The position numbers were made by a program, and so were the translations under genes. From positions 1-34,949 of the forward strand of contig CANGYM010000006.1 of assembly GCA_947458145.1 (NCBI GenBank): a stretch of DNA of 34,949 nucleotides. Reading direction: 5' to 3'. The stretch is from Alphaproteobacteria bacterium (GTDB taxonomy: Bacteria > Pseudomonadota > Alphaproteobacteria > JAJTHO01 > CANGYM01). The notes below the pieces were generated by a model, which had not been told where the DNA came from, searched no databases, and saw only the letters and a list, made by a program, of their open reading frames with translations. This document shows, piece by piece, positions 8,280 to 11,081 of the stretch (positions within the stretch are counted from its first letter, which is position 1; every line of letters starts with the position of its first letter).

Positions 8280-9107
8280 ATGATGCAGACCCATTACGAT
8301 GTTTTGGATGTCAGCGTGAGTGCCTCTGCCGATGCCATCAAACAGGCGTATCGCCGTCTGGCCCGTCAACACCATCCTGATGCCCCGCAGGGATCGACGG
8401 AGCGGTTTCAAACCCTGAATCAGGCCTATGAAACCCTGAGCCATCCGGAAAAACGCCGCCTGTATGATGCCACGCTGGCCCCCAAGGCCAAGGAAAAAGC
8501 CCCCCCACGCCCAACCAAGGCACCGCCCCCAAAGCCCAAACCCGTTTCCAAAGAGGAAGCCTCTCTGTGGTCACACTTCATCCGCAAAAAGAGCGCCCCC
8601 AACCCCGCAGAGCCAGAAGCCCGCTCTTTGGATGTGCCCGTATCGGCGCGACAATGTCAGGATGGGGACACAATCACCGTGTTTTGGAAAGAGGGCAGGG
8701 CCCTGAAAATCTCTGTGCCCAAGGGGGCGAAGCATGGGGATTTGCTGAAAATGACAACCTCTGACGGCCCCCTGATGGGGCGGGTGGTGGTGACAGAGGA
8801 CACCCTGAAAATCCAGGGGGCGGATGTGCACGCGATTTTGCCCCTGTCGCTGGGGGAGGCCATCATCGGCACCCGCCTGAACATCGCCACACTGCAGGGG
8901 CCGGTGTCCCTAAAAATCCCCCCCCACACCAGTTCCCACCGCGTGTTTCGCCTGAAAGGCAAAGGCCTGCGCCAAGCAAACGGCACCATGGGGGATCATC
9001 TGATCACCATCCAAATCGTTTTGCCCACAAATCTGGACCCCGCCCTGATGGCCTTTGCCGCCCCATGGCAAAACCAGCATCCCTATACCGTCAGGCCGGC
9101 GGGGTAG
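8280..9107 (+). CDS. J-domain co-chaperone, CbpA/DnaJ-like without zinc finger
   Basis: Probable Hsp40 partner of DnaK that stimulates its ATPase and delivers substrates. The J-domain covers about residues 4-68 (MQTHYDVLDVS...) with the diagnostic HPD loop in ARQHHPDAPQG near 32-34. DnaJ normally has a Gly/Phe region next; this protein instead has a Lys/Pro linker (APPRPTKAPPPKPKPVSK) and no CxxCxGxG zinc-finger repeats. Residues about 120-270 match the two-lobed DnaJ C-terminal substrate-binding domain (LDVPVSARQCQDG, ISVPKGAKHGDLL, LPLSLGEAIIGT, LKIPPHTSSHRVFRLKGKG). At about 275 residues it is the size of CbpA-type proteins rather than canonical DnaJ. Start codons GTG 8277, ATG 8280 and ATG 8283 are in frame; a GGGTG just upstream favours one of the ATGs. 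It probably shares a transcript with the preceding gene. Confidence 0.85.
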   Translation: MMQTHYDVLDVSVSASADAIKQAYRRLARQHHPDAPQGSTERFQTLNQAYETLSHPEKRRLYDATLAPKAKEKAPPRPTKAPPPKPKPVSKEEASLWSHFIRKKSAPNPAEPEARSLDVPVSARQCQDGDTITVFWKEGRALKISVPKGAKHGDLLKMTTSDGPLMGRVVVTEDTLKIQGADVHAILPLSLGEAIIGTRLNIATLQGPVSLKIPPHTSSHRVFRLKGKGLRQANGTMGDHLITIQIVLPTNLDPALMAFAAPWQNQHPYTVRPAG

Positions 9108-9131
9108 GGGGAATTTTTTTATAAAAAATGC

Positions 9132-9160
9132 TTGACGAATATATATATATATATTAATTT
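9132..9160 (+). promoter_or_regulatory. Candidate promoter for the 9247 gene, AT repeat in spacer
   Basis: TTGACG at 9132-9137 is a good -35 element, preceded by A/T-rich sequence (9113-9130) that could act as an UP element. The best -10-like words are TATTAA at 9152-9157 (spacing 14, too short) and TAATTT at 9155-9160 (spacing 17, weak match). The spacer consists largely of an (AT)8 repeat. The call is inferred from position: a lone RBS/ORF/terminator unit follows. Confidence 0.45.
9139..9154. repeat. (AT)8 dinucleotide microsatellite
   Basis: Eight uninterrupted AT units lie directly between a -35-like TTGACG and -10-like sequences. Such tracts can gain or lose units by slippage, which here would change promoter spacing in steps of two bases. 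Confidence 0.8.
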
Positions 9161-9223
9161 AACTCCCGTAAACCCCAAGATTCAAAAAAACTGCTAAACA
9201 GCAGTGACTTTGGCGCTTGGGAT

Positions 9224-9245
9224 ATCTCCCCTAGGAGGAGGAGAT
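9224..9245 (+). promoter_or_regulatory. Strong Shine-Dalgarno inside a short hairpin
   Basis: AGGAGG at 9233-9238 (extended as AGGAGGAGGAG) lies 8 bases before GTG 9247, an ideal ribosome-binding site and far stronger than most in this window. ATCTCC (9224-9229) pairs with GGAGAT (9240-9245), placing the Shine-Dalgarno in the loop and 3' arm. Translation may therefore be modulated by this fold. It decides the start of the next ORF. Confidence 0.6.
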
Positions 9246-9246
9246 T

Positions 9247-9711
9247 GTGGAGGAACAACAAACTCGGGATGTAACCGAAATAGCTCCCGAAAAAACCACG
9301 TCGGCCTTAGTGCCCACGCTCAAAACCCCTCTAAGAAAATTTTTCGAGGGGGTTTCAGAGGCTTTTCAAGGTCTCAAGAAAAGCTTAAGGGTGACCCTAC
9401 GGTGGTTCCTAAGGTGGTTTTTACCACGACTGTTCGTGGTTTTTATAGCCCTCATCCTCTTCGGTGGATGGATTCAGACGCAGCCCCTGAAGAAGGCTGC
9501 GGGTTGGGTGCAGCTTTCGGAGAGGCGAAGCGCCCGCTCTTGGTGCCAATCGTCGGCATCTTCAGGGTGGGTCAGCTATGGGATGCCTTATCCCCCCAAC
9601 GCCGAAACCCCATCGGTGAAAATCTCACCATGGGGGGTTTGGTGTAACGCCAACTCCCCAACTAAGGGGGTGGTGCTCAGGATGAAGAAATTGTTTCCTG
9701 ATCTTTTTTAA
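9247..9711 (+). CDS. Orphan 154-residue predicted membrane protein, hairpin-rich gene
   Basis: Unrecognised. It starts with GTG behind an ideal Shine-Dalgarno and ends in tandem TAA TAA directly followed by a strong terminator, so it looks like a complete one-gene transcription unit. The product has a charged N-terminus (MEEQQTRDVTEIAPEK), a basic amphipathic stretch (TPLRKFFEGVSEAFQGLKKS), and one hydrophobic segment around residues 56-76 (FLPRLFVVFIALILFGGW) suited to a single transmembrane helix. A Trp/Ser/Pro-rich tail with two cysteines follows. Codon use differs from neighbours, with repeated AGG, AGA, CTA and ATA, which are uncommon elsewhere here. The coding DNA is covered almost end to end by inverted repeats (see the 9191-9755 entry), so the unit may instead be a structured RNA or a palindrome-invaded gene. 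Another frame (9204-9647) is also open but has no RBS. Confidence 0.5.
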   Translation: MEEQQTRDVTEIAPEKTTSALVPTLKTPLRKFFEGVSEAFQGLKKSLRVTLRWFLRWFLPRLFVVFIALILFGGWIQTQPLKKAAGWVQLSERRSARSWCQSSASSGWVSYGMPYPPNAETPSVKISPWGVWCNANSPTKGVVLRMKKLFPDLF

Positions 9712-9712
9712 T

Positions 9713-9755
9713 AAAAGCCCCTACTCCTCGAAAGAGTGATGTTAGGGGCTTTTTT
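9713..9755 (+). terminator. Intrinsic terminator
   Basis: AAAAGCCCCTA (9713-9723) pairs perfectly with TAGGGGCTTTT (9743-9753); an inner CTC/GAG extends the stem, and a T run continues to 9755. It begins within the tandem stop codons of the 9247 ORF, so it closes that unit. Confidence 0.88.
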
Positions 9756-9820
9756 CTTTCGTAATGCACCCAAAAAAATCACCTCTCAAATCCCAACAGG
9801 GAGAGGCCGAACATTCTATT

Positions 9821-9856
9821 CCCTCTCCCGCTTGCGGGGGAGGGGTAGGGAGGGGG
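9821..9856 (+). repeat. REP-like palindromic element, copy 1
   Basis: CCCTCTCCC, a 6-base loop and GGGGGAGGGG form an imperfect hairpin, followed by TA and a trailing GGGAGGGGG. This hairpin-plus-tail architecture is the reverse complement of the element at 9919-9954. The stretch 9756-9989 holds no gene I can support; apart from these two elements it shows only G/C-rich flanks. Such CCCTCTCCC elements are common intergenic repeats in proteobacteria. Confidence 0.7.
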
Positions 9857-9918
9857 ACTTTCTAGAGGGGGTTTCGCCGCAAAATTTTCTCTTAACAACA
9901 AACAGATAGGGTCTTCGG

Positions 9919-9954
9919 CCCCTCTCCCCAGCCCTCTCCCCATTGGGGAGAGGG
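9919..9954 (-). repeat. REP-like palindromic element, copy 2 (inverted)
   Basis: CCCCTCTCCCC (9919-9929) precedes a perfect 10-bp hairpin, CCCTCTCCCC (9932-9941) with GGGGAGAGGG (9945-9954) and a 3-base ATT loop. On the minus strand it has the same order as copy 1 (hairpin, two bases, GGGGAGAGGGG tail), so the pair forms a BIME-like inverted module. It lies 35 bases past the recA stop. Confidence 0.75.
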
Positions 9955-9989
9955 AGAAGATGATGCTCCCTCTGTCTTCCGTCCTACGC

Positions 9990-11081
9990 CTACGCCAACG
10001 ACGCCTCTTCCAAGGGCTCTGTGTCCTGTCCCTGTTGCTGGGGATCGTCCTGATCGGGCTGGGTTAACATGGCATCCGTCAGGTTGCCGGCGGTGGCGCG
10101 GATTTTTCTTTCGATTTCATCGGCCACTTTGGGGTTTTCGGTTAAGTACTCTTTGGCGTTTTCCTTACCCTGTCCCAAACGGGTGGGGCCGTAGTTATAC
10201 CAAGCGCCTGATTTTTCAACAAAACCGGCCTGAACACCCAAGTCAATCAACTCGCCCGTGCGGGAAATGCCGCGCCCGTACATAATGTCAAATTCCACCT
10301 GACGAAACGGGGGGGCCACTTTGTTTTTGACCACTTTCACGCGGGTTTGGTTGCCGATGATGGCCTCTTTTTCCTTAATCGCCCCAATGCGGCGGATGTC
10401 CAAACGGACAGAGGCATAAAATTTCAACGCATTCCCCCCCGTGGTGGTTTCGGGATTGCCAAACATCACGCCGATTTTTTGGCGGATTTGGTTAATGAAA
10501 ATCACCATACATTTTGTGCGGGAAATGGACCCTGTTAATTTACGCAGGGCTTGGCTCATCAATCGGGCCTGCAGACCCATGTGGGAATCGCCCATATCGC
10601 CCTCGATTTCCGCCTTGGGCACCAACGCCGCCACACTGTCCACCACCACCACATCCACGGCGCCAGAGCGCACGAGGGTATCGGCGATTTCCAAGGCTTG
10701 CTCCCCCGTATCGGGCTGGGACACCAGCAATTCATTGACATTCACCCCCAAACGGGCCGCATAAACGGGATCCAGGGCATGTTCCGCATCAATAAAGGCA
10801 CACGTGCCGCCCTTTTTCTGGGCCTCCGCCACAATGTGCAGGGTCATGGTGGTTTTCCCTGAACTTTCGGGGCCGTAAATTTCAATAATCCGTCCCTTGG
10901 GCAATCCACCAATGCCAAGGGCCAAATCCAACGACAGGGACCCCGTGGGCACGGCCTCGATATCCAGCGCCCGCTGTTGGCCCAGCCGCATGACGGACCC
11001 CTTGCCATAAAACTTTTCAATTTGGGCCAGCGCTTGGCCCAGGGCTTTTTCTTTATCCAGAACGGGGGAATCTTTGCTCAT
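9990..11081 (-). CDS. recA: Recombinase RecA
   Basis: ATP-dependent strand-exchange protein for homologous recombination and the SOS co-protease reaction. It is 363 residues, a normal length. The Walker A GPESSGKT is at residues 70-77, a [10 protein letters not shown] Walker B strand follows, and the DNA-binding loop region [19 protein letters not shown](GG) is intact. The tail is Gln/Asp/Glu rich as usual. Start choice: the frame is open back to 11180, but [15 protein letters not shown] at 11081 matches the family N-terminus and has AAGGA 7 bases upstream (11089-11093). The longer form would run into mutY. The gene is divergent from mutY across 59 bases. I saw no GAAC-N7-GAAC or GTTC-N7-GTTC alphaproteobacterial LexA box in this spacer. 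The pair of REP-like elements lies downstream. Confidence 0.98.

Follow-up and report, generated by a model that had tools for sequence, protein, structure and literature searches.

A TA-repeat promoter family with structured leaders and orphan genes in an order of Alphaproteobacteria: candidate phase-variable cassettes

The mRNAs of type I toxins, among them hok, bsrG and aapA1, are highly folded, bury their Shine-Dalgarno sequence (SD), encode a membrane-active small protein and are paired with an antisense RNA encoded in cis or in trans. Phage moron genes are self-contained units of promoter, open reading frame (ORF) and terminator that carry unrelated cargo. In Haemophilus influenzae, a (TA)9-11 tract in the hifA/hifB promoter controls fimbria expression, and an effect via the spacing of the -35 and -10 boxes has been proposed (PMC2651432). 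In Mycoplasma gallisepticum, the members of the variable vlhA gene family have promoters that contain repeats (PMC6258824).

The window, a stretch of 34,949 nucleotides, belongs to the 1.4-Mb genome of an uncultured alphaproteobacterium (G000), which was compared with a congener (G001), a member of another family of the order (G002) and a third order member (G003); units are labelled as genome:contig. Positions 9132-9755 hold a compact unit of promoter, structured leader, SD, a 154-codon ORF and terminator (Table 1). A preliminary description had regarded it as a self-contained orphan unit between a J-domain gene and recA, and the position as well as the parts were recovered: the TTGACG promoter, AGGAGG at 9233-9238, 8 nt upstream of the start codon GTG 9247, the stop codon TAA at 9709-9711 followed by a second TAA at 9712-9714, one transmembrane helix as a single hydrophobic stretch at residues ~57-79, and an 11-bp terminator with a perfect stem (9713-9723/9743-9753) and a T run at its end. 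The compact layout thus stands, but the unit is not solitary, since it shares its promoter, its leader class and its type of terminator with other units. This family, the TA tract in the promoter spacer and the predicted burial of the SD go beyond what the preliminary description noted.

Table 1. Parts of the TA-promoter unit in the window.
Feature	Position	Strand	Basis
A-rich element directly 5' of the -35 box, here ATAAAAAATGC (family consensus ATAAAATnC)	9122..9131	+	29 unit promoters
-35 box TTGACG	9132..9137	+	CTTGAC invariant in the family, by pattern construction
17-bp spacer, (TA)n tract, putative slippage site	9138..9154	+	(AT)6 census, family spacer lengths
-10 box TAATTT (family TAnnnT)	9155..9160	+	promoter alignment
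Leader stem-loop, 48 nt, common to G001:C53, probably G001:C28a	9174..9221	+	helix probabilities 0.93-1.00
Predicted SD-sequestering hairpin	9224..9245	+	pair probabilities 0.91-0.93
Shine-Dalgarno run AGGAGGAGGAG	9233..9243	+	sequence
ORF, 154 aa: acidic N-terminus, amphipathic stretch, one transmembrane helix, two-Cys stretch	9247..9711	+	translation
Intrinsic terminator, motif GCCCCT.ACTCCTCGAAAGAG common to G000:C21	9713..9758	+	sequence, blastn

The names of the neighbouring genes were read off their translations. The window gene is missing from the congener, where ssb comes after the J-domain gene and pgsA after recA. This difference in gene order makes the interval 9107-9990 of the window a synteny break. 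The ssb gene of G000 is located on another contig and does not adjoin the J-domain gene. Palindromic CCCTCTCC...GGAGAGGG repeats occupy positions 9800-9960 between the unit and recA, and similar short stretches occur near other G000 units and on plasmids from Azospirillum, E. coli and other hosts. In a search of plasmid and phage DNA with the unit, every listed match fell within the CCCTCTCC repeats that follow it. Near three G000 units are MITE-like repeats of ~180-205 bp with 88-93% identity (upstream of L101, downstream of L103 and L104), and downstream of three G001 units (L109, L111, L116) are further such repeats of 106-133 bp with 98-100% identity. One of these near-identical repeats is included in a 450-nt stretch, 700-1150 nt past the promoter of the G001:C14 unit (L109), that has a fold z of -9.5.

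When the unit was compared with the whole genome by blastn, a single other locus was clearly significant. The match covers the terminator and lies at G000:C21, where the same promoter precedes a different ORF. The promoter consensus is ATAAAATnCTTGACn-(TA)n-TTAnnnTRA; a search of G000 yielded 12 copies and 0 control matches. With a relaxed pattern, 13 TA-type copies were found in G000, 10 in G001, 7 in G002 and none in G003; six further copies behind CTTGAC or near variants raise the number in G002 to ~13. A somewhat stricter pattern matched only G001 and G002 (MAGs RE-18aug17-8 and RE-15aug16-207) among 84,980 species and had no match in viral contigs. For alignment, 29 promoters with spacers of more than 80% A+T were taken. 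The search itself fixed CTTGAC, TTA and the final T of the -10 box, which are invariant for this reason. The relaxed pattern prescribed neither the TA spacer nor the upstream A-rich element ATAAAAT, and the latter carries 1.3-2.0 bits in most columns. Each of the 29 has a short tandem repeat between the -35 and -10 boxes, as do phase-variable promoters of the hifA/hifB type. Compared among paralogues, the spacer measures 17 bp in 20 promoters, 15 bp in seven, 19 bp in one and 21 bp in one, steps of one TA repeat unit each. In six promoters the TA tract is interrupted, and the spacer is 17 bp in every one; these could be locked ON, or their spacing could be fixed by function. The 34 (AT)6 matches in G000 collapse to 11 tracts, all in unit promoters, and the 20 in G001 are fully accounted for by eight known unit-promoter tracts. 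In G002, 28 matches make up 12 tracts: half of these belong to promoters found with the pattern, and the other six follow CTTGAC or close variants of it. CTTGAC(N17)CTATAT served as sigma-70 query for S. meliloti (PMC2573895); because the family promoter resembles this query, the primary sigma factor is its likely reader.

Behind the promoters, each unit has a structured leader and one small gene, nearly always an orphan. Six leaders (C5, C17a and C32 of G000; C11, C28b and C48 of G001) constitute class I, a 127-position RNA of four helices which starts directly behind the promoter in each copy. The members score 90-126 bits with the class I covariance model; no copy was detected in the other 383 of the 385 alphaproteobacterial genomes searched, and class I has no Rfam match. 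In the alignment of the six sequences, which was fitted to the model and leans towards it, 92% of the cells are paired and 16 are double-change cells versus 6.7 ± 2.3 in shuffles; controls with a slid model had 38-50% paired and 0-4 double-change cells. As judged from this alignment, class I is a conserved RNA structure with compensatory base changes beyond the controls and a new structured RNA. The window leader aligns to that of G001:C53 with a score of 41, as high as none of 500 shuffles, the next unit having 22. On the basis of these scores, the two leaders form a class separate from class I, to which G001:C28a probably belongs as well; its three or four members have similar geometry and are too few sequences for covariation. 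At gathering score, an Rfam search of the window and 20 unit loci gave one tRNA and nothing else, and at a relaxed E-value only sub-threshold noise on the window unit.

The 606-nt transcript of the window unit folds with -242 kcal/mol (z -7.55), a value equalled by 0 of 20 shuffles. Many of the inverted repeats reported earlier are real, with folding far beyond chance, and the mutually exclusive pair among them is seen in the sequence: 9423-9427 can pair with 9414-9418 or take part in the stem 9423-9429/9434-9440. Windows of 120 nt have negative z values over the whole of 9140-9740 and values close to zero within the J-domain gene and recA. The ORF alone has a fold z of -5.9, compared with -2.9 to +1.9 for 41 coding segments of neighbouring genes, and is more structured than its synonymous-codon shuffles (z -3.4, 40 shuffles). 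Since the effect is kept against these shuffles, codon choice favours the structure, not amino-acid content alone. The SD lies entirely inside a predicted hairpin. Among the three explanations offered by the preliminary description, a membrane-peptide gene under RNA-structure control comes closest: the ORFs of the family appear to code, leader class I is a conserved RNA structure, and the ribosome site of the window unit is sequestered in the predicted fold, which may exert such control. Invasion of a gene by palindromic elements finds no support in the genome, as no part of the ORF recurs convincingly; of the repeat copies elsewhere that are expected for insertions of the Rickettsia type, a significant one exists for the terminator region alone. 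A DNA-level role as cruciform was also considered. On average the sense strands of the units fold better than the antisense strands (-4.0 versus -3.2), and G-U pairs are slightly commoner on the sense strand (11.5% versus 9.6%, p 0.05), a comparison that leans weakly to a role of the RNA.

Across the family, the annotated frame was the best on host codon statistics, stops left out, for 24 of the 27 unit ORFs. Open frames are longer than in dinucleotide shuffles (Fisher-combined p 8e-24, for ORFs chosen partly for length). The coding sequences have a mean fold z of -3.0, and of -2.8 versus synonymous shuffles, a few members being without excess structure; 41 control segments averaged -0.4 (p 1e-7 for the difference). 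The family ORFs thus look coding, with synonymous codons that seem to favour structure. In G002:C39 (L123), a long ORF of about 430 aa with a Gly/Ser-rich end was noticed, its coding RNA folding with z -6.5. The products are a heterogeneous set. An all-against-all alignment of the orphan proteins (378 pairs) gave nothing significant, and a single origin of these proteins was dismissed on this result. The ORF of G001:C28a (L112) matches DUF1822 (E 5e-8, above cut-off), the one confirmed assignment to a protein family in the set; for the other cassette ORFs no match above cut-off was confirmed. PADLOC assigned 0 known anti-phage defence families to 27 orphan proteins.

The window ORF is one of three exceptions in the codon-frame analysis, with a neutral score. 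This fits the atypical codon use noted in the preliminary description and borne out by a host-codon log-likelihood of -0.10 per codon versus +0.39 for the genes of the window. For the 154-aa product, no convincing match was obtained in Pfam, NCBIfam, PHROGs, PADLOC and PDB, nor by tblastn against phages and plasmids, in scans of viral contigs and genome collections or in the 385 alphaproteobacterial genomes; the protein HMM and Rfam searches suggested at the outset have thus revealed no known family that explains the hairpins. Matches to FliQ/Bac_export_3 (E about 0.01-0.06) were discarded, as they cover the transmembrane helix alone. A single-sequence AlphaFold model had a mean pLDDT of 59, too poor for a fold search. 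The nearest partner is the ORF of G001:C53, with 27% identity over 78 aa, two Cys and a C-terminal LFP (E 0.03, z 3.2), which is not significant alone among 378 pairs and gains credibility because the leaders of both units match independently. Another TA-promoter unit, G002:C34 (L139), encodes a single-transmembrane protein with two Cys after the helix, as in the window protein.

Homology stops at the boundary of leader and ORF in several pairs of units. G000:C5 and G001:C48 share 85% identity over 205 bp, confined to promoter and leader, with unrelated flanks and ORFs. G000:C61 and C76 are 85% identical over about 190 bp and then diverge, so that leader homology is found without ORF homology. 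Both G000:C21 and G001:C53 are located beside rpoB, where the downstream DNA is 90% identical and the ORFs are without DNA similarity. These comparisons suggest that ORF replacement and extreme divergence may both occur.

The evidence tips somewhat towards dispersed, order-specific, monocistronic TA-promoter cassettes that are phase-variable, with the window unit as one member. The primary sigma factor would read the TA promoter, and slippage of the TA tract would shift the spacer among 15, 17, 19 and 21 bp, so that individual cells would raise or lower the expression of single cassettes; 17 bp, as in the window unit, would be the ON state. We infer this on/off switch by analogy with hifA/hifB. 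The folded leader, hiding the ribosome site in the window unit, and the structured coding sequence would set translation or mRNA lifetime. The window product would be a single-pass membrane protein with its two-cysteine stretch outside the cytoplasmic membrane, and would come from a pool of proteins with rapid divergence or turnover, such as contact with phages, predators or hosts should produce. The main rival to this reading is a coordinated, non-switching regulon, rather unlikely in our estimate, in which the TA tract would serve as a fixed structural spacer, as easily melted or flexible DNA or as a regulator site, all units answer one signal and the leaders are regulatory elements. The predominance of 17 bp (20 of 29), its retention in interrupted tracts, the strongly conserved A-rich element 5' of the -35 box and the conserved leader fold agree with such a regulon. 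However, perfect tracts vary by whole repeat units, and it is hard to see why a purely structural role would preserve perfect TA repeats in almost every copy in two families of the order.

The phase-variable reading is compatible with another proposal, which concerns the origin of the units: small mobile or recombining cassettes, in which the promoter-leader module was copied beside new ORFs or ORFs were exchanged behind it. The promoter-leader block of C5 and C48 with unrelated DNA on both sides, the leader homology without ORF homology of C61 and C76, the synteny break at the window unit and the short repeats near several units point in this direction, but neither a transposase or integrase nor a target duplication could be recognised, the phage, plasmid and viral collections searched yielded no copies, and the place beside rpoB is kept between species. 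We regard this origin, too, as doubtful. For the window copy, the preliminary description had also considered a structured non-coding RNA with an incidental ORF. Its exceptional fold, the neutral codon-frame score and a second open frame of 147 codons overlapping the ORF agree with this, whereas the near-ideal SD and start, the open frame of 158 codons (p 0.016), the protein-like layout with one transmembrane helix, the weak C-terminal similarity to the protein of C53, the unit with the matching leader, and the clear coding signal in most other members render it improbable here; for the family, where most ORFs score best in frame, a spurious ORF is an unlikely explanation. More tentative than the phase-variable cassettes themselves is a wider view of the family, in which a promoter-leader module whose TA spacer is hypermutable and whose RNA fold is novel would serve ever-changing orphan genes with mRNAs selected for folding, a phase-variable innovation repertoire outside known families.

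The family is a countable natural set of orphan genes with common regulation and without common sequence, which provides built-in controls for studies of how orphans arise and are selected. Should the TA tracts slip, an uncultured lineage would possess an unusually large phase-variable repertoire on one promoter type. The folding of coding sequences, apparently selected across the family, is open to tests. In the open-licence literature, each ingredient has a precedent, and none was found for their combination in one order-specific family. Like the type I toxin mRNAs, the window unit is a highly folded mRNA with a predicted buried SD and a predicted membrane protein, but its 154 aa with hydrophilic parts flanking the transmembrane helix are not the short hydrophobic peptide, typically under 60 aa, of these toxins, and many family members are larger and without transmembrane helix. 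As self-contained units with unrelated cargo, the TA cassettes resemble phage morons; they differ by their chromosomal location, their restriction to one order, the common promoter and leaders, and their absence from the phages searched. With vlhA they share many copies, a common repeat-bearing promoter and variable products; vlhA is however one homologous protein family with GAA repeats, while the cassette proteins have no detectable relationship and their repeat forms the promoter spacer. As in hifA/hifB, a TA tract lies between the -35 and -10 boxes and its length differs by whole repeat units, but here one promoter type precedes dispersed, unrelated orphan genes with structured leaders, and would switch them.
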